Shown here piece by piece: positions 30,301 through 59,725 of a stretch of 63,029 bases of DNA. Both the position numbers and the translations under genes were made by a program. The stretch's first letter is position 1. The number at the start of each line of letters is the position of its first letter. The stretch is from assembly GCA_009838075.1 (NCBI GenBank), contig VXSG01000033.1:1-63029 (forward strand), given 5' to 3'. The notes under the pieces are model-generated. The model saw only the letters and a program-made list of their open reading frames with translations, was not told the origin of the DNA and searched no databases. This stretch comes from Boseongicola sp. SB0665_bin_10. Lineage in GTDB: Bacteria > Pseudomonadota > Alphaproteobacteria > Rhodobacterales > Rhodobacteraceae.

Positions 30301-31532
30301 CGACTTGACACGGCGCGGCGCCGCGAATCTTCAGGCTCCAGCCGCGCCAGCAGCTGCGTGACAGACGTGAACATGGGTGAATGCGCGAATCGGGTCGCTT
30401 CCAGCGCCAGGCCGGGAAATCGCTGTGCGAGCAGGGCGATCGTCTCCTCGACCTCGACGGTCACGATGAAACGCCCGATGCACGAGAACACGCCACCACC
30501 GAAGTTCAGGTGCAGAGGCTCGTCCGTGCGGTAGATGTCGAAGACCTCAGGGGCCGAATAGTGGTCTGCATTCCAGTGAGTCGCGCCGACATTTGCGAAG
30601 ACCGGGGTTCCCTCTGGCAAGACAACCCTTTCAAGCTCCGTCGCCGACAATACCTCGCGCGACGTGGAAATGGTGCGGGGATGATAGCGCATGACCTCCT
30701 GAACGGCGCGTGAAACCTGTTCCGGCTGCGTGCCCAGCCGCAGCCATATGTCGGGCCGCGATGCGAGTTCGACGATCGCGATCCCGATCTGGTGCGAGGA
30801 GTTGTCAGTGTTGGCTTCCGCCAGCTTGATGACCCAGTTGCGCAGATCGTCGGCGTCCAGCAGTCCAGCATCCTCGGTCCGGATGAGATCGGAAAGCAGG
30901 TCGTCTCCCGGCGTCCGGCGTCGGTCGGCAATGCGCGCGTCAACGTAGTCGATGAGGGCCTCGAACGCCTCGACGATGGCGGGCGCATGCCGGGGATCGC
31001 GCGTGTGCGCCTGCTGGACGGTGTGCGATGTCCGTGAGACGAAATCGGCGTCGCTCAACGGGGCGCCGACCCAGTGGCAGTAGACGGCAGAGGGAATCCT
31101 GTCGCACAGCGACGAAATGAGATCCACGGGCCGGTCCGCGGGCAATGCGTCCACAATTTCGGTCACGACCTCGCGAATGTTGGGCCGGAAGCGCTCGGAC
31201 GCCTCCTCGCTCAAAAGCCGTGTGAGCGGGCGCCTGAGATCGCGGCGGCGGTCGCCGCGATTGTGGAACGAGATCGAGTTGCGCTTGTAGTCAAGCGGCC
31301 GGCCCTCCGGGAGGCCCAGGAGTTCGATGAGCTTGGGATGGCCTGTTCCAAGGTTCCGGTCGACAATCGCGTTCCGGCACAGTTCGTAGTCGAGCAGCTC
31401 CACACCACGCTCGCTTCGCGCGATCTTCCATTTCTGCGCCCAGCCCGAAAGAGCCGGAAACGGTGCGCTCCGGTATTCGACACTCGAGAAGTCGAGGACC
31501 GGCAGATCGGAAATCGTGCGCGGCACTGTCAT
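30285..31532 (-). CDS. Cytochrome P450
   Basis: A 415-residue soluble bacterial P450. The heme-binding loop is FGGGVFSCIGRF with the axial cysteine. The ExxR of helix K is probably EVMRYHPR. The I-helix oxygen site is in KLAEANTDNSSHQ, where the usual A/G-G-x-D/E-T is replaced by a variant (ANTDNSS), which may alter proton delivery. The ATG overlaps the end of the Rieske oxygenase gene (ATGA), so the two are co-translated. No ferredoxin or reductase gene is adjacent. Confidence 0.93.
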   Translation of the reverse strand: MTVPRTISDLPVLDFSSVEYRSAPFPALSGWAQKWKIARSERGVELLDYELCRNAIVDRNLGTGHPKLIELLGLPEGRPLDYKRNSISFHNRGDRRRDLRRPLTRLLSEEASERFRPNIREVVTEIVDALPADRPVDLISSLCDRIPSAVYCHWVGAPLSDADFVSRTSHTVQQAHTRDPRHAPAIVEAFEALIDYVDARIADRRRTPGDDLLSDLIRTEDAGLLDADDLRNWVIKLAEANTDNSSHQIGIAIVELASRPDIWLRLGTQPEQVSRAVQEVMRYHPRTISTSREVLSATELERVVLPEGTPVFANVGATHWNADHYSAPEVFDIYRTDEPLHLNFGGGVFSCIGRFIVTVEVEETIALLAQRFPGLALEATRFAHSPMFTSVTQLLARLEPEDSRRRAVSSRYAAS

Positions 31533-32578
31533 GGCTCTGGCCGCGTCGCGTCCCCGGACTCGCCTTCAGCCTCGATTGCGCGGCCGAGCATCAGGCGAAA
31601 TTGCTTGGCGCCGGCATCAAGGCCAAGATCAATGCTTGGCGTCCTCTTGTGCTTCATTCCGAGGTGAACCTTTTCGAGCACCGCGCGATCCTCTTCAAAG
31701 GCCATTCGGGCGCCATCATTCATGAACGCCGACACTTCCTGGTTCTCGGGATCGGCGTTTCGATGCTGGAACCAGAAATAGCGCGTCCGGTCTTCGTCTA
31801 TGGGCGTCATGAAATTGTAGGAGATGTTGATGAAAGTCTCCGCGACCGGATCCTTGCCGTATCCGCCCGTGCCCACAGGCGTGTAGATTGACTTGTTGAG
31901 ACCGATCGCCGGCATGCACATCTCGTAGTGCTGAAGCCGGTCGCAGTTGCCCTGGAACGATACAAGCTCTGCGTAGTATGGCGAAGGCGGCTTGTCCGAG
32001 ATCCACCGCGACACCACGACGCCACGGTCCGTCCTTTCGACATTCAGTGGTTCCTCGTCCGTCCCGGCCCCGGCAAAGGAGGTCACGTGCACCCACGCCA
32101 CGTGACTTGGATCGAGCAGGTTGTCGCAGACCCACAGGTAGTTGCAGTCGATGTCCAGAACCCCGCCATCCGTCTTTCCCCAGGAAGAATCCTCGAAGTT
32201 CTCGATCGGAAATATCCTGTCCGGATCGGCCAGCGCCGGATCGCCCGTCCATATCCAGAGGAAACGGTATCGATCAACGACCGGGTAGGACTTCACCGCG
32301 GCTCGGCGCGGAACGTTGTGCTGCTGCGTGGGCGCCGCAACGCATGAACCGCGGCGGTCGAATGTCAGGCCATGGTAGCCGCATTCGACGTGGTCGCCCT
32401 TGAGCGCGCCGTCCGACAGCGGAAGCTTGCGGTGAGGGCATGCATCTTCGAGCGCGACCGGCGTGCCGTCTTCCTGCCGGTAGAACACGATCTGCTCGCC
32501 CAGAAACGTCTCGGCCTTGAGTTCCCGTCCGACATCGTCGCTCCATCCCGCAACGTACCAGCAATTTCTCAGAAACAT
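31529..32578 (-). CDS. Rieske non-heme iron oxygenase (VanA-like)
   Basis: 349 residues. The N-terminal Rieske [2Fe-2S] domain has ACPHRKLPLSDG and VECGYHGL (C-x-H...C-x2-H). The catalytic domain has the mononuclear iron triad in DNLLDPSHVAWVH, with the third ligand probably in the FEEDRAVLE segment. It resembles aromatic O-demethylases and steroid or vanillate monooxygenase large subunits. Gene order on the minus strand is lysR, Rieske, P450. The ATTAG-N5-CTAAT operator copy (32659-32673) lies 81 bases upstream of its start. Confidence 0.93.
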   Translation of the reverse strand: MFLRNCWYVAGWSDDVGRELKAETFLGEQIVFYRQEDGTPVALEDACPHRKLPLSDGALKGDHVECGYHGLTFDRRGSCVAAPTQQHNVPRRAAVKSYPVVDRYRFLWIWTGDPALADPDRIFPIENFEDSSWGKTDGGVLDIDCNYLWVCDNLLDPSHVAWVHVTSFAGAGTDEEPLNVERTDRGVVVSRWISDKPPSPYYAELVSFQGNCDRLQHYEMCMPAIGLNKSIYTPVGTGGYGKDPVAETFINISYNFMTPIDEDRTRYFWFQHRNADPENQEVSAFMNDGARMAFEEDRAVLEKVHLGMKHKRTPSIDLGLDAGAKQFRLMLGRAIEAEGESGDATRPEP

Positions 32579-39770: not shown

Positions 39771-40087
39771 ACAAGGCCAAGCGTGCCTGGACCGATCTGA
39801 TCGCGGTGGATGCTCTGGAGCGGAACTGGGTCACTCGGGTGCCGCTGGGCCCGCGACTGCTTGCTGTCTACGATGCGCCGACCGGCATCTTTGCTTCGCT
39901 CGCGCACTGCAACCATGGCGGCGCCGATCTTTGCGACGGGTATTTCGACGGTCACGTCATCGAATGCCCGTTGCACCAAGGCGCATTTGATGTCCGCGAC
40001 GGAAAGCCGGTCTGTGCGCCGGCAACGCGCCCGATGAGGGTATTCGAGACCCGCGTGAAGGACGGGATGGTTCAAGTCAGAATCTGA
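39767..40087 (+). CDS. Rieske [2Fe-2S] ferredoxin
   Basis: 106 residues, a complete small Rieske ferredoxin. The cluster ligands are CNHGGADLCDG and ECPLHQGAFDVRDG (C-x-H and C-x2-H). It resembles the electron carriers of ring-hydroxylating dioxygenases. GTG 39767 overlaps the desaturase stop, so the two proteins are made together. It is likely to be the electron donor of that desaturase, but it could also serve the Rieske oxygenases elsewhere in the window, which lack a neighbouring ferredoxin. Confidence 0.9.
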   Translation: MNKAKRAWTDLIAVDALERNWVTRVPLGPRLLAVYDAPTGIFASLAHCNHGGADLCDGYFDGHVIECPLHQGAFDVRDGKPVCAPATRPMRVFETRVKDGMVQVRI

Positions 40088-40090
40088 GGA

Positions 40091-40489
40091 CTATTCGTCG
40101 GCGACTACCGCCATCGCGTCGATCTCGACCAGCAACGCCGGGTCGGCAAGCGCGCTGACGACGACTCCGGTCGAGCAGTGGTGCACGCCCTCGAACCAAC
40201 GGTTGATCGCTGCATAGACCGCCGGGCGGTAGCTGGCGTCAGTGACGTACACGGTCAGCTTCACGACGTCCTTCAGGCCGCCGCCAGCCTCGTTCATCCA
40301 GCGCTCGATGTTGCGGCAGGCCTGGTCCGCCTGCGCGCCCGGGTCCCCTTCGCCGATGACGGTGCCGTCCAGCAGCGTGCCGACCTGGCCTTGCATGACG
40401 ACGAGGTCGCCTCGCGCCCGGATCGCCTTGGAATAGGTCGCCTTCGCATGATAGCGGGTTTCGTACTTGTGGATATGCGTCCGTGTCAT
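40091..40489 (-). CDS. RidA/YjgF-family protein
   Basis: 132 residues of the RidA family, which includes deaminases that destroy reactive enamine/imine intermediates. The typical pattern G.V..........GDPGAQADQACRNIERWMNEAGGGLKDVVKLTVYVTD is visible in parts, followed by HCSTGVVVSALADPALLVEIDAMAV. It follows soxG by 13 bases on the same strand. The imine product of sarcosine oxidation or of amino acid oxidation would be a natural substrate, so a protective role in the sox operon is plausible. Confidence 0.9.
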   Translation of the reverse strand: MTRTHIHKYETRYHAKATYSKAIRARGDLVVMQGQVGTLLDGTVIGEGDPGAQADQACRNIERWMNEAGGGLKDVVKLTVYVTDASYRPAVYAAINRWFEGVHHCSTGVVVSALADPALLVEIDAMAVVADE

Positions 40490-40502
40490 TCATGCCTCCG
40501 AA

Positions 40503-41003
40503 TCAACGCAGCGCGCGTGTCAGGCAATCTTCCATCATGTCGCCGAAACTCTGCTCGACGGAAACGTCGAACCCGCCTGCGCATCGGCGCACCAGCGCAT
40601 TCTGGCCAAAGAGCTCGGCAAAGCTCACTGCATCCTCCGGAAATGCGGCTTCGTGCAGGTCGAGCGGACAGCCGATTGCCAGTACATGCGCCGCATCGGT
40701 TCCGGTGATGCGAAAGGTCGTCAAGGTGTCCGAGATCCTGACGATGCTCACCTCGGCCGGGGCGTCGTGCGGACGCAATGCCGCGTTCAATGCGTCCTCC
40801 CGGTCAATGTTCGCCTGCAAGAGCCAATGACGCGGTCCTACATGGTCGAGCGAAACGCCATCCGCCTTGCGACAGCAATTCGCTTCCACGGGAAATTCCG
40901 GCAGGACACCTGCGCCGATCCACTCGACCAAGGCGACTTCCTCGCCCTTCAGGTCGAAGCAGGCGCTGACCGGAAGCCTTTCGAATGATGCGTTGTAGCC
41001 CAT
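40503..41003 (-). CDS. soxG: Sarcosine oxidase gamma subunit
   Basis: A 166-residue protein of the SoxG family. Conserved parts are GPRHWLLQA and VRISDTLTTFRITGTDAAHVLAIGCPLDLH, given here in parts, and a late ALVRRCAGGFDVSVEQSF. In known enzymes the gamma subunit completes the alpha-beta-gamma-delta heterotetramer. Its ATG directly abuts the soxA stop (TGA-ATG). Confidence 0.9.
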   Translation of the reverse strand: MGYNASFERLPVSACFDLKGEEVALVEWIGAGVLPEFPVEANCCRKADGVSLDHVGPRHWLLQANIDREDALNAALRPHDAPAEVSIVRISDTLTTFRITGTDAAHVLAIGCPLDLHEAAFPEDAVSFAELFGQNALVRRCAGGFDVSVEQSFGDMMEDCLTRALR

Positions 41004-43925
41004 TCAGGACCTCATTCTCAGGCCGTCGGGATCGTGGAACACCGGCTCCCTGACGGTGGCGGCGGCCGTCGCGTTCTTCAAGCGGACGTGGACGGTTTCA
41101 CCATGCCGCGACTTCCCGTTCTCCAGAAGCGCCAACGCGACCCACCGGTCAAGGACGACGCTCCACACGCAGGCGGTTACAAGCCCCTCGGTCGGGTGCC
41201 TCCCACCGCCGGGAGTAAGCGGGGCGCCCTCCGGAATCTGGTCATTCAGGTTGACAGGCAGCAATCCCACAAGTTCGCGTCGAATTGCGTTGCCCCGGCG
41301 ACGCAGTTCCACCGAACGCTTGCCGACATAGTCCCTTTTCTTCTTCGACATGATCCAGCTCATGCCGAGGTCATGGGCATCCACCGTGCCATCCACTTCA
41401 TGTCCCAGGGAAAGAAATCCCTTCTCGACCCGCAGGACGTGGCTGGCTTCCGACCCTACCGGCTCGATCCCGAAGGGTGCACCGGTCTCCATGATCCGCT
41501 CCCAGAGGTCGCGCATGTGCCGAGGCGCAACGTTGACCTCGAACGACAGCTCGCCCGTGAAGCTGACCCGGACGACACGCACAGGCAGCCCGGCCACATG
41601 ACCGTCCGCGAACCGCATGAACGGCAGCCGCTCGGGCGAGAGGTCGATGTCCGTGCCCAGGGCGGCCATGACCTCGCGCGCCTTCGGACCGCACACGGTC
41701 GCGTTGTTCCACTGGCTGGTCACGGTCGTCACATGGACGTTCCAGGCCGGAAACTGAGTCTGAAGCAATTCCTCCATGTGCCCGTTCACGGTGTCCGCAT
41801 GGGCCGTGGATGTGGAGACAAGCCAGCGGTGCTCTCCCAGTCGCATGGCGACGCCGTCGTCAAGGATCAGGCCGTCTTCGGTCAGCATGAGCCCGTAGCG
41901 GCACTGGCCGGGCTTCAGGGTGGACATCAGGTTCGTGTAGACGTGGTCGAGGAAGCGACCGACGTCACGTCCCTTCAGCTCGAACTTCCCAAGGGGGGAC
42001 CCGTCATAGACTCCGACTCCCTCGCGGACGGCACTGCACTCGCGGTTGACGGTCTCCTGAAACGTCTCGTCGCCGCGCGGGAAATACCCCGGCCGCCGCC
42101 AGCGAGCGCCGGCCTCGTACATGAACGCGCCGTGATCAAGGTTCCACCGGGTAACGGGCGTGTGGCGGTATGGCAGAACGACGCTCTCTTCGCGGATTCC
42201 TCCGATCGCTCCAAAGGACACGGGCGTGTAGGGCGGGCGGTAGGTCGTGGTTCCGACATCCTGAAGCGGCACGCCCTTCTGAAGTGCAATCGTGCCGATG
42301 ACGTTGACATTGCCCGTCTTTCCTTGATCGAACCCCATGCCGCCCGTGGTGTACCGCTTGACATGTTCGACGTTGTCATAGCCCTCGCGAAGCGCGAGTT
42401 GCACGTCGTCGACCGTGACGTCGTTCTGCAAGTCCAGGAATGCCTTGCCCTTGGCACCCCGTGCACCGACGCGCCAAAGCGGCGTGATCGTGTAGCTTTC
42501 CTCGGTCGCTGCGGGGAGATCCGGCATATCCGTCCCCGCTGCCCTGGCGCCGGCCTCAGCACCGGTCCGCATGGCGGATGCGAGCGAAAACTCTCCCGCT
42601 GCACCTCCGACCGAAACGCAGGCCTGCGCCGCGTCGTCGGGCACGAAAGTCGCGAGAGAGTCGTCGTAGCGGAGACTGCCGCGCGCCTGGGAGAAGAGGT
42701 GCACGGCCGGGTTCCATCCGCCGGAGTGGAGCAGCAGGTCGCAATCGATCGCCGAGGCCCCCTGCCCGTCTCGCCCGGCAACGACGGCGGCCCTGACCGC
42801 CCGTCTTCCTCGAACGCCGACGACGGCGGCACCCGCCCTGATCGGGATGCCCTCAGCCAGGCCTCTTGCATGGCCAGGAATCGCATCGCGGCTGTCCACG
42901 ATTGCAGCAACGTCAACGCCCGACGCCAGAAGGTCAGACGCGGCGGCATACGCGCTGTCGTTGTTGGCGAAGACCAACGCCCTATCCCCCGGCTTCACCG
43001 CGAATCGGTTGACGTAGGCCTGAGCGGCGGAGGCCAGCATCACGCCCGGACGGTCGTTGTCTGCAAAGACGAGGCCCCTTTCGATCGCTCCGGTCGCAAG
43101 GACTACCTGTCGCGCCCGCACCCGCCAGTTCCGTTCCAGTAAGCTGGGGTTGGCCGGTGACCGCTCGTTCACCATCAGGAGGTTGTGCTCGCGATATGCC
43201 CAGACGCACGCGTCCTGCAGATGGTTGACATTGGGCATCGCCTTCAATTCTGCAACGGATTCAGCCACCCAGTCCAATGCAGGCCTTCCAGCGATTTGCA
43301 GGCGCCGGTCGAGCAGGCCACCGCCTGCCTCGGTTCGTTCGTCGGCCAGGAAGACCCGGCGCCCGGCGCGACCGGCGACAAGGGCCGCCATCAGCCCGGC
43401 GGGTCCGGCCCCGACGACCAGCACGTCCGCATGCGCATGCAGCGCCTCGAAATGGCCGCCTGACGGCGGCGCCCCCGGCGCGCCGGCAAGACCAGCGGCC
43501 TTTCGGATCGTCGGTTCATAGAGGCGCCAGGCCGGCCACTTGAACGTCTTGTAGTAGAAGCCCGCCGGGATGAGCCCCGCGAACAGCTGGCTGACCGCGC
43601 CAACGTCAAGGCCCGGCGACGGCCAGCAATTCACCGACCGCGCGGCCAAAGCGTCTTCCAGCCGGACCGTTGTCGCCGCAAGGTTGGCGGATGCGTGGCG
43701 ACCCTCCAGTTCCACCAGGGTCGCAGGTTCCTCCGGACCGGACCCGACGATCCCTCGAGGGCGATGATACTTGAAGCTTCGTGCAGTCAGTCGAACGTTG
43801 TTGGCAAGCAATGCCGACGCCAGGGTGTCGCCCGAATGTCCCGTGTACCCCTTGCCGTTGAAGCGAAAGTCCAGCGGCCGGCTTCGATCAATTCTTCCGC
43901 CAGACGGGAGGCGCCTATCCTGCAT
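41004..43925 (-). CDS. soxA: Sarcosine oxidase alpha subunit
   Basis: 973 residues, the large subunit carrying NAD and folate functions. The N-terminal domain (DFRFNGKGYTGHSGDTLASALLANN) is the 2Fe-2S-ferredoxin-like part. The dinucleotide fold follows (VLVVGAGPAGLMAALVAGRAG). The C-terminal 370 residues are a GcvT-like aminomethyltransferase domain that passes the released methylene group to tetrahydrofolate (block YGLMLTEDGLILDDGVA). ATG 43925 overlaps the end of soxD. The enzyme oxidises sarcosine to glycine with hydrogen peroxide and 5,10-methylene-THF as products. Confidence 0.95.
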   Translation of the reverse strand: MQDRRLPSGGRIDRSRPLDFRFNGKGYTGHSGDTLASALLANNVRLTARSFKYHRPRGIVGSGPEEPATLVELEGRHASANLAATTVRLEDALAARSVNCWPSPGLDVGAVSQLFAGLIPAGFYYKTFKWPAWRLYEPTIRKAAGLAGAPGAPPSGGHFEALHAHADVLVVGAGPAGLMAALVAGRAGRRVFLADERTEAGGGLLDRRLQIAGRPALDWVAESVAELKAMPNVNHLQDACVWAYREHNLLMVNERSPANPSLLERNWRVRARQVVLATGAIERGLVFADNDRPGVMLASAAQAYVNRFAVKPGDRALVFANNDSAYAAASDLLASGVDVAAIVDSRDAIPGHARGLAEGIPIRAGAAVVGVRGRRAVRAAVVAGRDGQGASAIDCDLLLHSGGWNPAVHLFSQARGSLRYDDSLATFVPDDAAQACVSVGGAAGEFSLASAMRTGAEAGARAAGTDMPDLPAATEESYTITPLWRVGARGAKGKAFLDLQNDVTVDDVQLALREGYDNVEHVKRYTTGGMGFDQGKTGNVNVIGTIALQKGVPLQDVGTTTYRPPYTPVSFGAIGGIREESVVLPYRHTPVTRWNLDHGAFMYEAGARWRRPGYFPRGDETFQETVNRECSAVREGVGVYDGSPLGKFELKGRDVGRFLDHVYTNLMSTLKPGQCRYGLMLTEDGLILDDGVAMRLGEHRWLVSTSTAHADTVNGHMEELLQTQFPAWNVHVTTVTSQWNNATVCGPKAREVMAALGTDIDLSPERLPFMRFADGHVAGLPVRVVRVSFTGELSFEVNVAPRHMRDLWERIMETGAPFGIEPVGSEASHVLRVEKGFLSLGHEVDGTVDAHDLGMSWIMSKKKRDYVGKRSVELRRRGNAIRRELVGLLPVNLNDQIPEGAPLTPGGGRHPTEGLVTACVWSVVLDRWVALALLENGKSRHGETVHVRLKNATAAATVREPVFHDPDGLRMRS

Positions 43926-44172
43926 CGCCTGGCCCCTCGACGATGTCATGCGTCCGCGTGTCCCGCCAGATCGTCAGCCAGGTGCCGCACCCCCTCACGT
44001 GCCACCAGCGTTCCTGCACGGGGCCGAGCGGATTGGGGACGGTTGTCAGCCAATCGACCCAGTCTTCATCGCTTGCCGCATGCGGGTCCGGTCGGTCCGG
44101 CTTCACGGGACCGCCATACGCGAACTCGCTTTCGCTACGGTCACCGCAGAACGGACATGGGATGAGCATCAT
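43915..44172 (-). CDS. soxD: Sarcosine oxidase delta subunit
   Basis: 85 residues. The zinc-site N-terminus CPFCG and the typical C-terminal block RWWHVRGCGTWLTIWRDTRTH match SoxD, which binds zinc with cysteines and histidine. It lies between soxB and soxA with short spacing (12 bases after soxB, overlapping soxA by 11), as usual for soxBDAG. Confidence 0.93.
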   Translation of the reverse strand: MMLIPCPFCGDRSESEFAYGGPVKPDRPDPHAASDEDWVDWLTTVPNPLGPVQERWWHVRGCGTWLTIWRDTRTHDIVEGPGDAG

Positions 44173-44184
44173 CGATCCGTCTCC

Positions 44185-45435
44185 CTATCTCGCCGTCGTC
44201 GTTCCGGATTCCATCACGTAGTCGAGATGCTTGAACCGGTTCATGGTGAAGGGCGCCATCAGCGGATGGGGCTCGCCCCTCGCGATCAGGTGCGCCAATG
44301 TCAGCCCTCCGGCCGGGATCGCCTTGTAGCCGCCCCACCAGCCTGCCGTCACGAAGAGCCCCGGAACGTCCGTTTCGTCCATGATTGGCGAGGCGTCGGG
44401 CGTGATGTCCACATGTCCGCCCCATTGGCGCAGGAGCTTCAGCCTGCTGAACGACGGGAACAGCGACAGCAAGGCCGTCACGGTGTCCTCGAACACGTGC
44501 TGCTTGACGTCGCGGCGAAAGCTCTGGCCCATGTCCGGCGCGCCGCCGATCACCATTTCGCCCTTGTCCGACTGGCTGAAATAGAACCCGCTGTCCGGGC
44601 AGTTCACGACCACGTCGACAAGCGGCTTGACCGGCTCGGAAACGAAGGCCGTCAGGTTCATCGTTCGCAGCGGCAGCCTGAGCCCGACGGTCTCGGTCAG
44701 CGTCGTCGTATGCCCCGACACCGCAACCGCAACCTTGCGCGCCCGCACGATGCCGCGCGTCGTCTCGACACCCTCTATGGCGCCGTCTCGGCCGCGCAAG
44801 AGCCTGGTGACCGGCGTCTGCTGGTGCATTTCGACTCCCCGCGCATCGGCGCCGCGCGCATAGGCCCACGCGACCGCATCGTGCCGGTTCACCCCGGCGT
44901 CCGTATGCACCATCCCGCCGATCACGGGCAGCCGTGCATCCGGCCCGCCGCCGGTCAGCGCCGGAATTCGTCGGCGAACTTCCTCGGTGGAAATCCGTTC
45001 GTAGGTCGACCCGTAAATGTCCATGATCAGCTGACGGCGCCGCAGCTCGCGCATCTTCGGATATGTCTGGACCACGTCGATCATGGTGCGCTTCGAGTGC
45101 ATCAGGTTGAAGTTCAATTCGTCGGTCAGGCCCTCGTACAGCGCGACCGACTTCACGTAGAACGGGATTGACGCATCGCGCATGTAGTTCGACCGGACGG
45201 TCACGGTGTTTCGCGCGACATTCCCGCCGCCGAGCCATCCCCGCTCCAGGACCGCGACATCGGTGATGCCGAACTCCCTGGCAAGGTAGTAGGCGGTCGC
45301 CAGTCCATGTCCGCCGGCGCCGATGACGACCACGTCGTAGCTTTCCTTCAGGGGCGGGCTGCGCCAGGCGGGCGCCCAGGTCGTATGGCCGTTGCGCGCA
45401 TGCCGGAGCAGGGAGAAAATCGAGTATCGTTGCAT
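44185..45435 (-). CDS. soxB: Sarcosine oxidase beta subunit
   Basis: 416 residues, the catalytic FAD subunit. The FAD motif is YDVVVIGAGGHGLATAYYLA. The site of covalent FMN attachment is probably the His in NRHDAVAWAY. The substrate side has GWWGGYKAIPAGGLTLA near the C-terminus. The MQRYSIFSLLRHARNG start matches known SoxB N-termini. First gene of soxBDAG-ridA, transcribed divergently from an XRE-cupin regulator gene 62 bases away with repeats in the gap. Confidence 0.95.
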   Translation of the reverse strand: MQRYSIFSLLRHARNGHTTWAPAWRSPPLKESYDVVVIGAGGHGLATAYYLAREFGITDVAVLERGWLGGGNVARNTVTVRSNYMRDASIPFYVKSVALYEGLTDELNFNLMHSKRTMIDVVQTYPKMRELRRRQLIMDIYGSTYERISTEEVRRRIPALTGGGPDARLPVIGGMVHTDAGVNRHDAVAWAYARGADARGVEMHQQTPVTRLLRGRDGAIEGVETTRGIVRARKVAVAVSGHTTTLTETVGLRLPLRTMNLTAFVSEPVKPLVDVVVNCPDSGFYFSQSDKGEMVIGGAPDMGQSFRRDVKQHVFEDTVTALLSLFPSFSRLKLLRQWGGHVDITPDASPIMDETDVPGLFVTAGWWGGYKAIPAGGLTLAHLIARGEPHPLMAPFTMNRFKHLDYVMESGTTTAR

Positions 45436-52543: not shown

Positions 52544-53119
52544 CTATTCCCGTCCGTTCAGCGCATCCTCGAACGTCTTTCGCGCCTCGGCACTATGGAT
52601 GTAGTCGTAGTTTCTCGGGTACGACTCGCCGGGCACTGTCTCGAGGCTGACCATCTGCGGACCGTCAAGCCCGACGATGCGGGGCACCGCGCCGACAAAT
52701 TCGTCAAGTTCGTCAAACGACCGCGACATGGCATATCCCGCAGCCGCGGCAAGCCCCGCAAAGTCGACGTTCTCGGCGTTCGGGATCGGCTGGTCGCCGT
52801 TCACCTCGTACACGCGGTTCGCAAACACGAAATGGTAGAAATTGGTGACGTCGGCGCCGGCAACGGTGACGAGTGCGCCGAGATTCATGAGCAGCGAGCC
52901 GTCACCGTCAAACACGAACACCCGCCGCTCCGGGTTGGCCAGCGCGAGGCCCAGCCCGTGCGACGCCGCCTGCCCCATTGCTCCTACGGCGACGTAGTTC
53001 AGCGGCCTTGGATTGATCGCAATCCAGTCGAAATTCGCCTGGTACACGGCGACGACAATGTCGTCGTCGCGCACGAGCGGCACGAGGGCGCGAAGCGCGT
53101 CATCACGCCTGATGGTCAT
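52544..53119 (-). CDS. TPP-dependent decarboxylase, beta subunit (ComE-like)
   Basis: 191 residues of the C-terminal TPP-binding class. The TPP motif is FVFDGDGSLLMNLGALVTVA followed by ANRVYEVNGDQP. It resembles the beta subunit of sulfopyruvate or phosphonopyruvate decarboxylase. Its start overlaps the end of the alpha gene by 4 bases (ATGA). Together they would decarboxylate a 3-substituted pyruvate to an aldehyde. Convergent with the MATE gene, one base apart. Confidence 0.85.
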   Translation of the reverse strand: MTIRRDDALRALVPLVRDDDIVVAVYQANFDWIAINPRPLNYVAVGAMGQAASHGLGLALANPERRVFVFDGDGSLLMNLGALVTVAGADVTNFYHFVFANRVYEVNGDQPIPNAENVDFAGLAAAAGYAMSRSFDELDEFVGAVPRIVGLDGPQMVSLETVPGESYPRNYDYIHSAEARKTFEDALNGRE

Positions 53120-53664
53120 GGCGCCACCGGTGCCCGGCCAATCAGGAACACGTGCGGGCGCGAATTCGAATATGCTTCCTCGATCAGGCGAACGATGCCT
53201 TCGACGTCCTCCGGCTCCTCGATCGAGGAATGGGAAATCCCCATCGCCCGGAGCACCGGCTCGACGATCCTCACCCCGTAGGCCGCGGACTCGCTTGCGG
53301 GCAGATGGGGCTCCTTCTCCAGCAGACCAACAAGCATGACAACCGGCCTTTGGTAGTCGACTCCGATCGCCCGAACCGCGTTGAGGGAGTCCATGAGTCC
53401 GGTCTGCTGCATCAGCAGCACCGCTCGCGTGCCGTTGCAGGACATCGCGGCACAGATGGAGACGCCTTCGTCCTCCTTGCAGACCCGTGTCAGGCGAATC
53501 GCCGGGTCTCGCGAAATCGGCCAGAGCAGGCCGTCGCTCGTGACGATGTCGGGCAGCGCAACGACCTCTCGAACCCCGCTTTCCCTGAGAAGCTCGATGA
53601 TGCGCGCGCCCGAGGGGTGCGCCACCTGCGCCCCTGTCCCTGCCGACGTGGCTGCGGCCGTCAT
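53116..53664 (-). CDS. TPP-dependent decarboxylase, alpha subunit (ComD-like)
   Basis: 182 residues of the N-terminal PYR class. VCKEDEGVSICAAMSCNG contains the catalytic Glu, followed by AVLLMQQTGLMDSLNAVRAIG. It is the partner of the beta subunit. The stop/start junction with the aminotransferase gene upstream also overlaps (ATGA), so three genes are co-translated. Most like sulfopyruvate decarboxylase alpha (ComD). Confidence 0.85.
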   Translation of the reverse strand: MTAAATSAGTGAQVAHPSGARIIELLRESGVREVVALPDIVTSDGLLWPISRDPAIRLTRVCKEDEGVSICAAMSCNGTRAVLLMQQTGLMDSLNAVRAIGVDYQRPVVMLVGLLEKEPHLPASESAAYGVRIVEPVLRAMGISHSSIEEPEDVEGIVRLIEEAYSNSRPHVFLIGRAPVAP

Positions 53665-54818
53665 TTTGCCGTCCCAAGATGACGCTCGAGCGCCCTGGCG
53701 GTTGCGTCCAGCTCGCGCCGCAGGCCGATCGAGACCCTGAAGCAGTTTGCATAGGCCGGCGAGTTCATTCGCCGAACCCGAATCCCCCTCTCGCCGAGCG
53801 CAACGACCGCCGATTCCGACTGGGCTGCCTCGGGCATCCTGACGAGGACGAAGTTGGTTTGCGACGGAACGCAATCCACGCCCAGGCGGGCCAGCCGGGC
53901 GCAGAATCGGTCCAGAAGCGCACGGTTCTCCCGTCGGACGAACGCGACATGCGCCTGGTCTTCGATCGCCGCCATCGCAGCCGCGACAGAAGGTCCCGCC
54001 ATCGGGAAGGTCAGGGCGATCCGCCGCACGGCGTCGACCACGTCCCGCGGGCCATGCGCCCAGCCCACGCGCGCTCCGGCAAGTCCGTAGATCTTCGAGA
54101 ACGTCCGGCAGACGACCACGTTGGCGGATCGCGCGACAAGGCCATGTCCGGGACAGTAGTCGCCGGCCCATGCATATTCGGCATAAGCGCAATCCAGGAT
54201 CAGGAGAACGTCGTCGGGAAGCGCGGCATGCAGTCGTTCGACCTCGGTCCCCGGCAGGTACGTGCCGGCCGGGTTTTCCGGATTGGCGAGGTAGACAACG
54301 CGCGTCCGCTCGGTGACGGCGGCGATCATCCCGTCGACGGAAGGTGTCAGGTCGTCATCGTCGACCGAAACGACCTCGCCTCCGTTTGCATGGGCATAAT
54401 TGGGAACCTTCAGGTATCCGTTTGCGGAGCGGATCAGTTGGTCTCCCTTACCGAGATAGGCACGGAACAGCCGCGACAGAAGGTCGTCCGCCCCCTGCCC
54501 GACGACTATCCTCTCCGGGTCGAGCTTGTGAAACCCGGCAATTGCGCGGGCCAGCGTGGCCTCGACTCCCTCCGGATATCGCTCGATTCCGGACACGCAT
54601 GCACGGGCGGCGTCCCTTGCGCGCCGGCTCGGGCCAAAGACGCTCTCATTGGAGTTCAGGAGCGCCCAAGGGGGCGGCAGGCCGTCGTCAGCCGACCCAA
54701 GCATGTGTGCCCTGATCCGATCGATTCCCGGCTTTGCCCTCGGTCCCGCTATCGTCGCCTCCCCAATTCGATGCCGCAAGCCACATGCAAGGACAGGTAT
54801 GGTCAATACCCTCATCAC
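53661..54818 (-). CDS. Class I/II aminotransferase (HisC-like)
   Basis: About 385 residues in the longest frame, fold type I PLP enzyme like histidinol-phosphate aminotransferase. The PLP lysine lies in CRTFSKIYGLAGARVGW and the early blocks are LNSNESVFGPS and ERYPEG. The family N-terminus (RAKPGIDRIRAH) begins near 54740, so the true start is probably downstream of ATG 54818. A strong GGGGAGG (54758-54764) sits just before ATA 54752 and no ordinary start codon is there. Coupled to the ComD/ComE-like genes. It would supply the 2-oxo acid for decarboxylation. Confidence 0.85.
   Translation of the reverse strand: MMRVLTIPVLACGLRHRIGEATIAGPRAKPGIDRIRAHMLGSADDGLPPPWALLNSNESVFGPSRRARDAARACVSGIERYPEGVEATLARAIAGFHKLDPERIVVGQGADDLLSRLFRAYLGKGDQLIRSANGYLKVPNYAHANGGEVVSVDDDDLTPSVDGMIAAVTERTRVVYLANPENPAGTYLPGTEVERLHAALPDDVLLILDCAYAEYAWAGDYCPGHGLVARSANVVVCRTFSKIYGLAGARVGWAHGPRDVVDAVRRIALTFPMAGPSVAAAMAAIEDQAHVAFVRRENRALLDRFCARLARLGVDCVPSQTNFVLVRMPEAAQSESAVVALGERGIRVRRMNSPAYANCFRVSIGLRRELDATARALERHLGTAK
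54796..54810. promoter_or_regulatory. Inverted repeat GGTAT-N5-ATACC between divergent operons
   Basis: A perfect 5-base inverted repeat in the short gap between the aminotransferase operon and the deacylase gene. Its geometry suits a GntR-type operator. It lies within the longest aminotransferase frame, another hint that translation starts downstream. Confidence 0.4.
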
Positions 54819-54864: not shown

Positions 54865-55860
54865 TTGGCAGCCACCAGGGTTTCGACGTCCATCGACCTC
54901 GAAAAGCCCGGTCGTCACGTCGGCGCGTTTCGCCTTCGTTGGTCCGACAATTCCAACCCGCTGGGCCATCATCCAATCCCGGTCATGTCGCTGAAGGGCG
55001 GCGCCGGTCCCGTCGCCTTGTTCATTGGCGGCACGCATGGCGACGAGTTCGAGGGACCGGCCGCCGTCATGCGCCTGGCACGGCAGCTTGACCCGGCGGG
55101 TCTCGCGGGGCAGGTCATTCTCGTTCCCGCCCTGAACGCTCCCGCGATCGCCGAATCCTCCCGTGTCAGCCCGCTGGACGGCGCGAACCTCAACCGGGCC
55201 TTTCCCGGCGATCCGGACGGGGGACCGACAGCCATGATCGCCGACTACGTCGAGACCGAACTGCTGCCTCGCGCCGACGCCGTGGTCGACCTGCACTCAG
55301 GTGGAAAGGCATCGTTCTTCCAACCCTGCACGCTAGTCACGCACTGCGCCGACGGAGCGCTCTACGAGGCGAATCTTGCCCTGGCCCGGGCGTTCGGCCT
55401 TCCGCTGATCTGGCGGCTGGGCGCCCAGAACGATGACCGCTCCGTCAATGCCGCCGCCGAGCGGCGCGGCGTCCCCATGATCGCCACGGAACTGGGAGGC
55501 GGCGGCGGATCGGATCCCGAAATCACGGATCGCGCTGAGGCCGGCCTGCTCCGCATGCTTCGGACTCTGGGGATCATCGCCGGCGCGGCGGAACCCCGCG
55601 ACGCCCGGGTCGTTGAGACGTCGTCACCGGACTCGTCGCTCTGCGCGGCAGGCGACGGACTGTTCGACAGGGCCGCAGCAGCGGGGCAGGAAGCGAAATC
55701 CGGTGCCCTGGCCGGCACGCTTCATCACGTGTTCGAACCGGAGCGGCCGTCAAGGGACGTGAAGTTTCAGTCTGACGGCGTCATCCTGGCGCATACTTGC
55801 CGCGGCCTTGTAAGGCGCGGAGACTTGCTGCATCTCGTTGCACAGGACGTCACCGAATGA
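54865..55860 (+). CDS. Succinylglutamate desuccinylase/aspartoacylase-family deacylase
   Basis: 331 residues of the M14-like AstE/AspA zinc family. The first metal motif is GGTHGDEFEGP (H-x2-E), the second zinc His is in VDLHSGG, and ANLNRAFPGD completes the site. It is closest in style to DoeB, the deacetylase of ectoine degradation, but no doeA partner is nearby. TTG 54865 follows GAAGGG and is the best start. Divergent from the aminotransferase operon, and 73 bases upstream of the Rieske operon on the same strand. Confidence 0.88.
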   Translation: MAATRVSTSIDLEKPGRHVGAFRLRWSDNSNPLGHHPIPVMSLKGGAGPVALFIGGTHGDEFEGPAAVMRLARQLDPAGLAGQVILVPALNAPAIAESSRVSPLDGANLNRAFPGDPDGGPTAMIADYVETELLPRADAVVDLHSGGKASFFQPCTLVTHCADGALYEANLALARAFGLPLIWRLGAQNDDRSVNAAAERRGVPMIATELGGGGGSDPEITDRAEAGLLRMLRTLGIIAGAAEPRDARVVETSSPDSSLCAAGDGLFDRAAAAGQEAKSGALAGTLHHVFEPERPSRDVKFQSDGVILAHTCRGLVRRGDLLHLVAQDVTE

Positions 55861-55933: not shown

Positions 55934-57292
55934 ATGAACGACCGGTTTGCAGCACCGACAGGCAACTTTCGCGGACACGCCCGACAGGCCGTCTGGGCCG
56001 CGGCGCCCGACCCCGAACTGACGGAGGTCGGCCCTGGCACGCCTTGCGGCGAGTACTTGCGCCGCTACTGGCTGCCCGTCGCGATGACGGACCGGGTCGG
56101 AGACCTTCCCTGCCGCATCAGGATCCTGGGCGAGGACCTCGTGCTGTTCCGGGAAAAGGGCGAGGGCAGGCTCGGTCTCACCCACCTGCATTGCTGCCAC
56201 CGGAACATGAGCCTTGAATTCGGCATCGTGGAAGAGGGAGGCATTCGCTGTTCCTATCATGGATGGAAATACGGGCTCGACGGGACGATCCTCGAGACAC
56301 CCTGCGAACCGCCGGCCAGCCAGGTCAGGACGCGCGCCTGCCTTGGCGCCTACCCGGTCATCGAGTGCAAGGGCCTCGCGTTCGCCTATATGGGGCCGCC
56401 GGAGGAACAGCCCGGGTTTCCCGTGATGGACACGTTCGACGAGGCGGGCGACGAAATGCTGCCTTACCTCATCGAGTCTCCGTGCAACTGGCTTCAGGTG
56501 ATGGAGAACGCGTGGGACCCTTTCCACGTCGTCTACCTTCACACGCTCGCGGTGCGCAGCCAGTTCATCGACGCTTTCGCCGAAATGCCGATGATCGAGT
56601 TCCACGAGAGCAGGACGGGTGATTTCTACACCAACGTAAGGCGCGTGGACGACATTGTCTGGATCCGGTGCCATGATCACATGCTGCCGAGCTTCACGCA
56701 AAACGGCGGACACTTTCCCGTGCCGGACAAGCCCCGGTATTTCGGGCGCTGCGGACTCAGCCGCTGGGTAACGCCAGTGGATGACACGCATACCCTGGTG
56801 ATCGCATGGCGCCATTTCCGCGACGGCGACGACCCCCGGGGCTTGACCGACAAGTCACGGGTCGGCTTCGGAACGACCGATTTCTATGGCCAGGGGCCCG
56901 ATCGCTCCTACGAGCAGCGTCAGCGCGACCCTGGCGACTATGACGCCTGGGTCAGCCAAGGCCCGAAGAACATTCATGCGCGCGAGAACATGGGCTTCAC
57001 GGACAGGGGCGTCGCGAAGGCCCGCCGTCTCCTGCGGAACGCCATCCGTTCCGTTGCCTCCGGGAACCCGGCACCGCAGCCAACGGACAGTTTCAAGGGC
57101 GTGATCCCGACCTATGGAGGTGACACGATGCTCAGAATTCCCGTGCAGGAGGGTCGTGACGACGGTGCGGTCCTCAAGGAGGTCTCGATCGACGTGGCGG
57201 AAATCTACAGGTCCGCCGATCACCTGCAGGGGGACGCGAGAAACGAGTTCATCCGGTCGCGTCTCAAGGAATACGAGGCGGGCTGGCAATGA
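55934..57292 (+). CDS. Rieske non-heme iron oxygenase (phthalate dioxygenase-like)
   Basis: 452 residues. The Rieske domain has LHCCHRNMSLEFG and RCSYHGWKYG. The catalytic domain has NAWDPFHVVYLH, supplying two iron histidines, and a late iron-ligand region. At 452 residues it is longer than the VanA-like oxygenase at 31529, with a long C-terminal segment. First gene of a coupled operon: its TGA overlaps the ATG of the next gene (57289). No reductase or ferredoxin gene is in the operon. Substrate unknown. Confidence 0.9.
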   Translation: MNDRFAAPTGNFRGHARQAVWAAAPDPELTEVGPGTPCGEYLRRYWLPVAMTDRVGDLPCRIRILGEDLVLFREKGEGRLGLTHLHCCHRNMSLEFGIVEEGGIRCSYHGWKYGLDGTILETPCEPPASQVRTRACLGAYPVIECKGLAFAYMGPPEEQPGFPVMDTFDEAGDEMLPYLIESPCNWLQVMENAWDPFHVVYLHTLAVRSQFIDAFAEMPMIEFHESRTGDFYTNVRRVDDIVWIRCHDHMLPSFTQNGGHFPVPDKPRYFGRCGLSRWVTPVDDTHTLVIAWRHFRDGDDPRGLTDKSRVGFGTTDFYGQGPDRSYEQRQRDPGDYDAWVSQGPKNIHARENMGFTDRGVAKARRLLRNAIRSVASGNPAPQPTDSFKGVIPTYGGDTMLRIPVQEGRDDGAVLKEVSIDVAEIYRSADHLQGDARNEFIRSRLKEYEAGWQ

Positions 57293-57918
57293 CGCGCGTC
57301 TCCATCAATCCCGGCCGCGTCGACTGGTCTGGCGAGAATCCGGGCATCTACCTGAAGTCCGATCCCTCCGCCGACAGGTACGACGCCCTTGCCCTGTTCT
57401 TTCGCGTCGTCCTCTCCCCCTTCGGCCGCGGACATGCCGGCCTGGTCATCGGCCAACCAGACAGTGATGCCGGCTGGCCAGATGCACCCAACTTCATCAT
57501 GACCGACAACCAGCGCATGATGCGCTGGATCGTGGATGGCTGGGTGTCGAAGATGCCAACATTCGTCGGCAAGTCCGGCCTGAAGCGCATGACCTGGCTT
57601 GATTGCGACAGCGTCGAAAGGCGGCCGGGCGACCTGAAGACCCGATACTCGGAAACCGTTCGTGGCTCCGGCGTGACTCTTGAAATGATCTGGCGCGACA
57701 TGGGTCCGCCCCTGCCCGTCGAAGTCACGAAGGAGAACTCGGCCACCAAGGCGCACGAAATGTACTCCGTGTTTCTGGAGGCGGGATCTGCGGAGGTGCG
57801 CGTAAACGGGACGCCGCTCCCGGGCCGGGTGGCCGAGCGGCAGTTCTTTGGTCGCACGATGTCAACCGCCTTCCTCGCGTTTTCCGAAACCTGGGTCACG
57901 CCAACGGAGGATGCCTGA
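57289..57918 (+). CDS. Unknown protein A of a tandem paralogous pair
   Basis: 209 residues, no recognised domain. It shares its whole layout with the next protein: PGRVDWSGENPGIYLK at the start, AL.FFRVV.SP.G.G in the middle, R.SETVRG.GV.LE.IW.D, then EMYSVFLEAG..EVRVNG.PLPG.V, and FLAFSETWVTP at the end. Predicted soluble, with mainly beta structure. ATG 57289 overlaps the Rieske stop. Its place in the operon suggests an accessory subunit, a ferredoxin-independent electron partner, or a substrate-binding protein of the Rieske enzyme. Confidence 0.75.
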   Translation: MTRVSINPGRVDWSGENPGIYLKSDPSADRYDALALFFRVVLSPFGRGHAGLVIGQPDSDAGWPDAPNFIMTDNQRMMRWIVDGWVSKMPTFVGKSGLKRMTWLDCDSVERRPGDLKTRYSETVRGSGVTLEMIWRDMGPPLPVEVTKENSATKAHEMYSVFLEAGSAEVRVNGTPLPGRVAERQFFGRTMSTAFLAFSETWVTPTEDA

Positions 57919-58544
57919 TGCCGCTGAGCGCACCGATCACCCCTGGCACGGTCGACTGGACCGGGGAAAACCCCGGCATTCTCCTGAAGGACGACGACGG
58001 GACATTCACGGCCATGGCTCTCTTCTTTCGGGTGGCCTGGTCGCCGGCCGGCCAGGGCCAGGTGCTCTGGCTCTACGGCTCTCCTGGACTGGAGGCCGGC
58101 ACGCCCGAGGCCCCGAATGTCGTTTTGGCCGACAACGTCGACCTCGCCACCTACCTGAAGTCAAATTTCATTGGCCGTCTCGGCGCCTTCCGCGACGCGC
58201 CGGCATTCGCGCACATGACACCGCGCCTTGCCCAGACCGTGCGAAGCTCCGGCGACCCGAAGAGCCACCGGTATGCCGAGACCATTGTCGGAGAGGGCCT
58301 GGCCGTGGAACTGGTGTGGGAAGACCTGGAACCGCCGAGGGCGCTGGAGCTTGCGCCTGACCAGGTCGGCACCGGCGCCCACACGATGTTCACCCTCCTC
58401 GTTGCCGCAAGAGATGCGCAGATCATCGTCAACGGCCGCGCCCTGCCAGGCCAAGTGGGCAGCCGCGTGCAGGCCGGTCTCGAGACGACAACCGCCTTTC
58501 TCTATTTCAGCGAGACGTGGGTGATCCCGCCCGCCGCGGCATGA
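57918..58544 (+). CDS. Unknown protein B, paralogue of the preceding gene
   Basis: 208 residues and clearly homologous to protein A: PGTVDWTGENPGILLK, ALFFRVAWSPAGQGQ, RYAETIVGEGLAVELVWED, RDAQIIVNGRALPGQVG, and FLYFSETWVIPP. No domain known to me. Its ATG shares a base with the stop of A (TGATG), and its stop overlaps the DUF1116 start. The pair could form a heterodimer. It arose by tandem duplication. Confidence 0.75.
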   Translation: MPLSAPITPGTVDWTGENPGILLKDDDGTFTAMALFFRVAWSPAGQGQVLWLYGSPGLEAGTPEAPNVVLADNVDLATYLKSNFIGRLGAFRDAPAFAHMTPRLAQTVRSSGDPKSHRYAETIVGEGLAVELVWEDLEPPRALELAPDQVGTGAHTMFTLLVAARDAQIIVNGRALPGQVGSRVQAGLETTTAFLYFSETWVIPPAAA

Positions 58545-59725
58545 CGCATCGCCATGACGACAGGCTGGCGTTCGACCGAGCCATGGTCACGCAACCGGTC
58601 TGGAACAGGTTCGACCTGGCACGAGACGCGACCGGCATCGCGGACAACGTCCTTCTCCATGCCGGACCGCCCTTTCCGGATCCTGGCGAGATCAGCCGGC
58701 CAATCCTGAACTCGGCTTGCGTTGCTGCCGTCTACGAGGGGCTCGCGCCGAGCCTCGACGCGGCCGAGCGCATGATCTCGTCTGAAGAGATCCTTCTGAA
58801 ACCAGCGCAGGACGTGAATGTCGTCACACCGCTTGCAGCCGTTGTCAGCGCCTCAATGCCGCTGCATTCCGTGTACGACGCGTGGCGAGGGCAGCACAGG
58901 ACGTTTGCCCCGATCAACGGCGGAAACCGGCCCGCCCTTCGCCTCGGCCTGAGGTCGGAAGCGGTCCTGGAACACATCAGATGGCTCAACACGCGCTGCC
59001 TGGACGTGCTTCAGGGAGGCCTCGCGGAAGGGATCGCCCTCGTGCCGCTGGCCGTCGAAGGCCTCAAGGGCGGCGATGACTGCCACGGGCGGACGCCGGT
59101 CGCGGGCGCCGCGCTTGTCCGCGAGTTGATCGATCGTTCGCCGAACGGTGTCGGAGATGACGAGACCCTGGAGTTTCTCAAGGGGTCGCCCAGCGTCTTT
59201 CTCAACCTCTGGATGGCGGCCACCAAGCTGATGATGAGCCGGGCGGAGGGCGTTCCAGGTTCCGGTTTTGTCACCGCGGCCGGTGGCAACGGTCGCGACG
59301 TCGGCATCCAGGTCTCCGCATTCCCCGGGCACTGGTATACCGTTCCTGCCACGCCGCCCGAAGGCGCGTTCGACGTTGACCTGCCGCAGTCCCGTGCCCT
59401 GGGTGCCATAGGCGACAGCGCCGTTGTCGATGCGTTCGGCCTGGGCGCAATGTCAAGTGTGCGCACCGAGCCGCCGGCTTCGGTCAAGTCAGTTCACGGC
59501 ATGTCGGTCGGAGAGCATCCCTATTTCAGAGGCACGGGACTGAAACTGGGCATTTCCGCGATGGCAGTCGCCGAAAGTGGACATGCCCCGCGAATCAGCC
59601 TTGGAATTCTTGATCGCAAAGGGGAAATGGGACGCCTTGGCGGCGGCCTCTATCAAGTGCCGGTCATGCCTTTCAAGCAAGCGGCGGAGGACATCCTGAC
59701 GAGTCGTCAGCCGTCTTCGGGCTGA
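58541..59725 (+). CDS. DUF1116 family protein (AllG/YlbE-like)
   Basis: 394 residues of the DUF1116 family. Conserved blocks are LKPAQDVNVVTPLAAVVSASMP, APINGGNRPALRLGL, GDDCHGRTP and FVTAAGGNGRDVGIQ, each given in part. E. coli YlbE/AllG belongs to this family and is part of the AllFGH oxamate carbamoyltransferase of allantoin degradation. No AllF (FdrA) or AllH is present here. Last gene of the Rieske operon (ATGA overlap). It suggests carbamoyl or acyl transfer after oxygenation. Confidence 0.8.
   Translation: MTHRHDDRLAFDRAMVTQPVWNRFDLARDATGIADNVLLHAGPPFPDPGEISRPILNSACVAAVYEGLAPSLDAAERMISSEEILLKPAQDVNVVTPLAAVVSASMPLHSVYDAWRGQHRTFAPINGGNRPALRLGLRSEAVLEHIRWLNTRCLDVLQGGLAEGIALVPLAVEGLKGGDDCHGRTPVAGAALVRELIDRSPNGVGDDETLEFLKGSPSVFLNLWMAATKLMMSRAEGVPGSGFVTAAGGNGRDVGIQVSAFPGHWYTVPATPPEGAFDVDLPQSRALGAIGDSAVVDAFGLGAMSSVRTEPPASVKSVHGMSVGEHPYFRGTGLKLGISAMAVAESGHAPRISLGILDRKGEMGRLGGGLYQVPVMPFKQAAEDILTSRQPSSG

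Follow-up and report, generated by a model that had tools for sequence, protein, structure and literature searches.

A Rieske oxygenase, two paralogues of an unnamed protein family and an AllG/DUF1116 protein encoded in a conserved four-gene unit of Boseongicola sp., a possible core of an N-heterocycle catabolic cluster

Results

We analysed a stretch of DNA of 63,029 nucleotides from Boseongicola sp. SB0665_bin_10 (contig VXSG01000033.1, forward strand; referred to as the window), whose source genome is a 4.8-Mb assembly of 124 contigs. Positions 55,934 to 59,725 carry four consecutive genes, encoding a Rieske non-heme iron oxygenase, two paralogues of an unnamed family and an AllG/DUF1116 protein. 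The paralogues are called parA and parB here, working names coined for this analysis only. With a probability of roughly two in five, we propose that the four genes form the core of a conserved catabolic cluster through which an N-methylated N-heterocyclic amino compound would serve as carbon and nitrogen source. The kind of system, a Rieske-led catabolic cluster, is known; what is new is that it contains a protein family unnamed in the libraries searched.

According to the original prediction, made by a model from the sequence, the four genes are coupled by stop/start overlaps at 57289, 57918 and 58541, which was taken to imply a shared complex or pathway. The overlaps are real (ATGA at 57289, TGATG at 57916-57920 and ATGA at 58541); by themselves they do not demonstrate a complex. 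When the genes were compared with those of a relative (locus L015), nonsynonymous divergence (dN) was 0.03-0.07 and synonymous divergence (dS) 0.37-0.56. The dN/dS ratios were ~0.07 for the Rieske gene, ~0.08 for parA, ~0.16 for parB and ~0.13 for AllG, so that all four genes are selected as proteins. Between 54500 and 60300, no promoter- or terminator-like site was found on the plus strand, and neither the one promoter-like nor the one terminator-like site of the minus strand was clearly above shuffles.

ParA and ParB aligned with 41% identity over ParA residues 5-206 (E 1.4e-45), which bears out the view that the tandem genes are homologous along their whole length. Neither protein had a Pfam match above cut-off or any NCBIfam match, and ParA had no PDB sequence match. 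A profile built from 64 family members gave chance matches only against the PDB (E at least 1.1), and the same 64 members, scanned against Pfam at E <= 0.1, brought up four families, each from one member. The Rieske small (beta) subunit family gave no Pfam match for ParA, ParB or the 64 members scanned.

Structures were then considered. AlphaFold predicted ParA with a local distance difference test score (pLDDT) of 93.8 and a template modelling score (pTM) of 0.90, and ParB with 94.6 and 0.91. Both models consist mainly of beta strands, with two short helices following the fifth strand. Foldseek found no PDB chain at E <= 0.001 among the best 50 of 970 matches for ParB and the best 50 of 950 for ParA; the best match (E 2.1e-3, template modelling score (TM) 0.20) was not counted. 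The BFVD fold search, made for ParB only, also gave nothing at E <= 0.001. Weaker matches among those listed were 9g4c and 6kaw for ParB and 7e5t and 6jjs for ParA, which we take to be lipocalin-like proteins; at E 0.08-0.4 and TM <= 0.34, a lipocalin-like fold is not claimed. Judged from the predicted models, ParA and ParB possibly have a new fold, the comparison covering the PDB and, for ParB, BFVD. The paralogues had been said to match no known family, and this stands: nothing rose above chance in Pfam, NCBIfam or PDB sequences, no PDB fold reached E <= 0.001, and the contrary outcome named in the original prediction (a known family, for example a Rieske small subunit) did not occur.

Residues were called conserved when kept in at least 95% of the ParA rows, at least 95% of the ParB rows and all five single-copy relatives aligned, with L041 excluded. 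They include G15, N17, E122, W135, G179, R184, E200 and W202 (ParA numbering); one of the five single-copy relatives lacks W13. A tree of 54 rows placed 28 ParA rows on one side of a branch (support 85/73) and, likewise, 21 ParB rows (93/79). Each group holds bins named alpha- and gammaproteobacteria, and five relatives, single-copy in the sequence examined, fall outside both groups of this unrooted tree. Since the two branches are separate, moderately supported and span alpha- and gammaproteobacterial bins, the duplication looks old, and the simplest reading of the sequences would be one old duplication with both copies retained. At a Paracoccaceae locus (L041:7352-7957), ParA is just 30% identical, on a branch of 4.6 changes per column, and the adjacent ParB is 61% identical; this ParA may be either decaying or acquiring a new role.

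Gene order was surveyed by scanning one genome per species for ParB relatives with exact peptide patterns, which gave 53 loci in 52 genomes. The loci having been found through parB, counts of that gene are true by construction. Two loci (L014, L058) belong to one bin, L067 and L033 represent two Ruegeria conchae strains, and L025 and L006 (genome G079) probably represent a single contig; L006 and L067 lie outside the 53. With Rieske matches below 40% identity dropped, the order Rieske-parA-parB-AllG was present in 33/53 loci, parA-parB-AllG in 44/53 and parA-parB in 49/53; counting just the 42 loci that have enough sequence on either side gave 28, 37 and 40. Hence, the survey suggested with the original prediction found a conserved four-gene order, and not one restricted to the window. 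The loci come from bins named alpha- and gammaproteobacteria, including a SAR116 bin, several Ruegeria species and Rhodobacterales, the closest being in bins named Boseongicola and Silicimonas. Of 149 genomes searched within the window's family, 3 match. One is the window's own, and both G059 and G079 (the latter probably the genome counted as L025) have these four genes in the window's order. The Rieske gene stands apart at L047, L048, L053, L055 and L056, where it adjoins HisC- and ComDE-like genes. At L026 (8305-9483), the AllG match falls into two pieces ~370 bases apart, at the contig end.

The four-gene unit belongs to a larger cluster, in which genes for an aminotransferase and a thiamine diphosphate (ThDP)-dependent decarboxylase lie divergently upstream (Table 1). 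Gene content was counted for the 29 loci of at least 16.5 kb, dropping matches that covered less than 40% of the query and not counting Rieske matches below 40% or HisC and aldehyde dehydrogenase (ALDH) matches below 38% identity. The Rieske gene was present in 29, AllG in 27, the ComD-like gene in 25, HisC-like and ComE-like genes in 24 each, the DoeB-like gene in 19, ALDH in 18, amidase in 17 and any sarcosine oxidase-like gene in 14. The DoeB-like deacylase gene is probably the first gene of the unit; in many relatives it adjoins the Rieske gene or lies one ALDH gene away.

A plasmid of Ruegeria conchae (NZ_CP081104, locus L067) carries the full cluster. It starts with LysR, followed on the other strand by ComE-, ComD- and HisC-like genes, continues with DoeB-like, ALDH, Rieske, parA, parB, DUF1116 and amidase genes, and ends with an AEC transporter, RidA, the sarcosine oxidase-like genes G, A, D and B, PhyH and a second Rieske gene. 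The window holds homologues, at 48-83% identity, for 15 of the 17 R. conchae proteins compared (LysR and the transporter excluded). Its RidA and sarcosine oxidase-like genes are probable partners of the four-gene unit; its PhyH and VanA-type Rieske genes are possible ones, seldom seen within the flanks of other loci (2/29 and 1/29, respectively).

Table 1. Features of the window in and around the four-gene unit. Percentages are identities to Ruegeria conchae proteins.
Feature	Coordinates	Strand	Match
PhyH dioxygenase (+) and second VanA-type Rieske oxygenase (-)	29518..32578	+ / -	PhyH, VanA_C; 76%, 79%
RidA and four sarcosine oxidase/N-methylglutamate dehydrogenase-like genes (G, A, D, B)	40079..45435	-	48-83%
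ThDP-dependent decarboxylase, beta-like	52556..53119 (match range)	-	69%
ThDP-dependent decarboxylase, sulfopyruvate decarboxylase alpha-like	53122..53625 (match range)	-	68%
HisC-like aminotransferase	53667..54737 (tblastn match range)	-	57%
DoeB/aspartoacylase-like deacylase, start codon uncertain	54865..55860	+	PF24827 3.2e-37
Rieske non-heme iron oxygenase, 452 aa	55934..57292	+	PF00355, LigXa_C, PDB sequence match
parA, paralogue 1 of unnamed family, 209 aa	57289..57918	+	no Pfam, NCBIfam or PDB sequence match
parB, paralogue 2 of unnamed family, 208 aa	57918..58544	+	no Pfam or NCBIfam match
AllG/DUF1116 protein, 394 aa	58541..59725	+	PF06545 9.2e-57; PDB sequence 3clq 3.6e-31

Two regions of the window were also read by eye. 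A gene at 30285-31532 reads like a cytochrome P450; it lies beside PhyH (29518-30297) and overlaps the second Rieske gene (~31529-32611), and no P450 is annotated between these two genes in the R. conchae cluster. Directly downstream of AllG, tandem genes at 60231-61349 and 61061-62458 read like tyrosine integrases, at a place where many relatives carry an amidase gene. These integrase-like genes may mark a rearranged cluster end in the window.

The Rieske protein matched PF00355 (8.3e-15, 54.9 bits vs a cut-off of 20.3) and, partially, LigXa_C (7.2e-07). The [2Fe-2S] motifs C-x-H and C-x-x-H were read by eye, placing the protein among Rieske domain members, as was D-x2-H-x4-H, part of a putative mononuclear iron site. 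Its best PDB sequence match was 7fhr, a putative phthalate 4,5-dioxygenase (1.2e-42), and no curated NCBIfam oxygenase model reached its cut-off. Related Rieske genes occur in other settings. One, 42% identical, forms a Rieske/VanB reductase pair on a Methylibium petroleiphilum PM1 plasmid (L126:5872-8434), presumably the tert-butyl alcohol hydroxylase MdpJK. Another, 43% identical, lies on a Rhodobacteraceae plasmid (L125:3258-18677) with importer genes of the ectoine type, betB, genes for hydroxyacid dehydrogenases and one annotated 5-guanidino-2-oxopentanoate decarboxylase; no ParA/B or DUF1116 is annotated there, and the cluster is perhaps a sister pathway.

The fourth protein was matched by PF06545 over the whole model (192.5 bits vs a cut-off of 27), which places it among AllG subunits and agrees with its earlier assignment as an AllG-related DUF1116 protein. 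Its gene is the sole PF06545 match in the window's genome, and 3clq is a solved DUF1116 structure, deposited as uncharacterised. AllG/DUF1116 was also seen on plasmids of Azospirillum, Caballeronia, Paraburkholderia and Pacificitalea (L071, L073, L074, L075), near molybdenum hydroxylase genes and, at L071 and L073, with amidase and HpxZ. No FdrA or AllH is annotated near AllG at these four loci, where annotation is known to be incomplete.

One further genome of the class, G728 (one contig), showed the genes in two groups: a run of ALDH, Rieske (73%), AllG and amidase, and parA-parB after an importer ~9 kb away. Next to the run lie a formamidase-like gene and genes for a glutamine synthetase that passes the type III cut-off, a glutamate synthase-like protein, a GXGXG protein and a glutamine amidotransferase. 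We take the set formed by the glutamine synthetase, glutamate synthase-like, GXGXG and amidotransferase genes to be gmaS-mgsABC, which converts methylamine to N-methylglutamate. The enzymes of this pathway are named in PMC13390433. The genome appears SAR116-like, because its FmdA-like and MetX-like genes are 83% and 81% identical to their counterparts at L044 (titled SAR116) and are arranged as they are there. FmdA-like genes were found only in paired loci with no AllG within the flanks (L043, L044, L099). Displacement of AllG by a formamidase was rejected for G728, the source of L099, where AllG lies ~12 kb from parA.

A profile that included divergent members detected the ParA/ParB family in 41/385 genomes of the class, 35 of them with a single match; among the 385, only two genomes, G728 and that of the window, were listed with adjacent pairs. 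When a narrower profile was run over a sample of 398 genomes of the phylum, it matched 2, one of them being the window's own. Twenty stretches carrying relatives varied in context. Three single-copy clusters combine a Rieske gene, an amidase and an ABC importer with the relative, which favours the proposed catabolic reading. The Paracoccus aminovorans cluster has a distant Rieske gene, a VanB-type reductase, an epimerase/dehydratase-family protein, the relative, DUF1116, a VOC protein, an amidase and an ABC importer. In Variovorax, a Rieske gene (47%), the relative, a Liv-type importer and DUF1116 are followed by an amidase past a divergent LysR-like gene, and G645 has a Rieske gene, a Pot-type importer, the relative and an amidase.

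Across the same 385 genomes, the ParA/ParB family (41/385) and AllG (37/385) occurred together in 14, vs 3.9 expected (Fisher p 2.9e-6). This is a hint only, kinship being uncorrected and two families supplying three genomes each. AllG was present in 6 of 14 hand-picked genomes with ParA/ParB relatives. We also looked at 69 neighbours of mostly single-copy relatives, which included luciferase-like monooxygenase (3), formamidase (2), amidase (1), hydantoinase A (1), hydantoinase B (1) and a molybdopterin-binding domain (1). These counts are the best 25 of 109 listed, ordinary families among them, from a hand-pruned set that had no control set, and a general link of ParA/ParB to N-heterocycle genes is not claimed beyond the paired group. 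At L114 (7999-12431), a single-copy relative lies directly upstream of hydantoinase A and B genes.

Discussion

In the route that we propose, the HisC-like aminotransferase, the ThDP decarboxylase and the aldehyde dehydrogenase would shorten an amino-acid side chain, and the Rieske enzyme would hydroxylate the ring. ParA and ParB, as a probable heteromer, would act with AllG/DUF1116 to open the oxidised ring or to cleave an amide or ureide formed from it. Amidase and DoeB-like deacylase would liberate a simple amino acid, and removal of the N-methyl group would be left to the sarcosine oxidase-like complex. The place of ParA and ParB, whose genes adjoin AllG in 44/53 loci, is most likely after ring oxidation and before the amide is cleaved.

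The proposed substrate, an N-methylated N-heterocyclic amino compound, is read from the gene content. Genes for N-acyl removal, transamination, decarboxylation and aldehyde oxidation point to an amino acid whose side chain is unusual. The Rieske, amidase, RidA and AllG genes point to oxidation and opening of a nitrogen ring, as does an amidase homologue (39% identical) that in Rhizobium daejeonense adjoins a gene annotated 2,5-dihydroxypyridine 5,6-dioxygenase. The sarcosine oxidase-like complex, along with the methylamine genes, suggests an N-methyl group. The gene set, its conservation, the separate parA and parB branches and the absence of library relatives for ParA/ParB are observed; the kind of substrate, the sequence of reactions, the heteromer and the part played by ParA/ParB are inferred. 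A new enzyme system is plausible.

Several observations weigh against this proposal. ALDH and amidase had no match in the window; the best amidase in the window's genome is just 32% identical, and no amidase was seen in 12/29 long loci. The aminotransferase, decarboxylase, deacylase and sarcosine oxidase-like reactions are guesses, because the proteins fall below the cut-offs of the named families. The DoeB-like protein scored 229.2 bits against ectoine_eutE/DoeB (cut-off 402.7). The R. conchae homologues scored 241.1 vs 276.55 for the hisC equivalog, 85.9 vs 147.95 (alpha) and 102.6 vs 221.5 (beta) for ComDE sulfopyruvate decarboxylase and, both just short, 494.8 vs 529.45 and 1151.2 vs 1164 for SoxB and SoxA. 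The ALDH and amidase proteins tested were also below the curated cut-offs of the specific families that they matched. The ParA/ParB alignment has no invariant His, Cys or Lys and offers no clue to where catalysis might occur. In the Paracoccus cluster, the Rieske gene is a distant relative (22% identity over 202 residues), and most single-copy relatives of ParA/ParB examined sit in mixed contexts, so that the family may have a more general role.

A bolder form of the proposal is a long shot: ParA/ParB would have a new fold and constitute a new heteromeric enzyme class which, with AllG and in the absence of AllH, would open or hydrolyse an oxidised N-heterocycle in an undescribed pathway. As an example, ring- or N-methylated imidazole amino acids (the methylhistidine, hercynine and ovothiol class) would be converted to a heteroaryl acetate, then to N-methylaspartate and aspartate. 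Literature searches, for which ParA/ParB offer no name, found no paper that joins DUF1116 with a Rieske oxygenase and none that combines three of the six pathway terms, and no bacterial Rieske gene study was among the imidazoleacetate matches listed.

The strongest rival, which we consider unlikely, is that the cluster is the published pathway for homarine (N-methylpicolinate) or a close variant of it. The Rieske enzyme would then open the pyridinium ring, ALDH with amidase or deacylase would lead to N-methylglutamate, and the sarcosine oxidase-like complex (Mgd) would yield glutamate. The homarine operon is reportedly named homABCDER and is said to occur in Rhodobacterales, SAR11 and SAR116. 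Locus names in our survey do include Rhodobacterales and SAR116, and Sox/Mgd-like genes, ALDH, amidase and RidA all occur in the cluster of R. conchae. Among the 37 AllG-positive genomes (of 385), however, the smallest measures 1.9 Mb, above the size that SAR11 genomes are said to have. Participation of Mgd in homarine catabolism is stated in PMC13390433, which cites work on a conserved homarine pathway published in Nature Microbiology in 2026; our own literature search on homarine yielded no gene list. The HisC-like and ThDP decarboxylase genes, present in 24/29 and 25/29 long loci, have no obvious place in such a pathway. Moreover, Ruegeria pomeroyi, which consumes homarine according to PMC12817926, is not among the 53 loci; this is a weak argument, because the scan required exact peptide patterns. 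Both of these objections are indirect.

It is rather improbable that ParA/ParB are partners of the Rieske oxygenase, as a new small subunit or effector, with AllG catalysing a separate step. parA does directly follow the Rieske gene in most Rhodobacterales loci, and a second type of Rieske gene precedes a Pot-type importer and parA-parB at L043, L044, L049, L054 and L099. Elsewhere, however, parA-parB keep company with AllG while the Rieske gene is several genes off or not seen (L045, L047, L048, L052, L053, L056, L057 and L060, titled gammaproteobacteria or Proteobacteria). Single-copy ParA/ParB relatives occur with no Rieske gene nearby, and the window-type Rieske gene of G728 stands in a run that lacks parAB. 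The phthalate dioxygenase-type relatives in the PDB reportedly need no small subunit.

We regard it as very unlikely that an oxamate carbamoyltransferase-like system moves a carbamoyl or acyl group after the oxidation. This reading has in its favour the strong, full-length PF06545 match, and AllG homologues elsewhere accompany HpxZ and amidase genes. PMC3364942 also names ylbE (DUF1116) among three genes that may encode the E. coli enzyme. Against it, AllH (PF11392) was absent from the one genome searched, the window's own, with the E. coli control positive. No FdrA-like gene was noticed in the neighbourhoods, the genome not having been searched for FdrA/AllF. ParA and ParB match no Pfam model above cut-off, that of AllH included. 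Of the pathway first suggested for these genes, one step, oxidising a small nitrogen compound, agrees with the neighbouring genes; the carbamoyl or acyl transfer is unsupported, because AllH is absent and AllG occurs in other operons as well.

ParA and ParB are under purifying selection and lie side by side in 49/53 loci; neither has a Pfam or NCBIfam name or a counterpart among the solved folds compared. The putative catabolic cluster that they mark occurs, among others, in a SAR116 bin and in several species of Ruegeria. Naming its substrate would probably add a route of organic-nitrogen recycling by marine bacteria, and would give DUF1116 a second testable role besides oxamate carbamoyltransferase.

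Comparison with known systems

The oxamate carbamoyltransferase of E. coli, AllFGH (FdrA/YlbE/YlbF), shares with the window the full-length AllG/DUF1116 domain. It differs in that the window's AllG has ParA/ParB and the Rieske protein as partners, in a genome that lacks AllH. Phthalate dioxygenase-type Rieske oxygenases (PDB 7fhr, 7fjl) are the best sequence matches of known structure and have the same Rieske centre and a mononuclear iron motif of which the window's enzyme has a putative counterpart; the window's enzyme differs from them in its neighbouring genes and probably in its substrate. The homarine pathway resembles the cluster in the stated involvement of Mgd and in the distribution attributed to it, but has no obvious role for the aminotransferase and the ThDP decarboxylase.

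Two further systems invite comparison. Trigonelline (tgn) degradation in Acinetobacter likewise applies an oxygenase, ALDH and amide hydrolysis to an N-methylated heteroaromatic compound, with release of methylamine; its oxygenase, however, is a flavin enzyme and not a Rieske protein, and it is not known to include ParA/ParB or AllG. Neither is the histamine/imidazoleacetate (hin) system of Pseudomonas putida U known to include them. By description, it has in common with the proposed route an aminotransferase, ALDH, an oxygenase acting on a heteroaromatic acetate and the release of aspartate.

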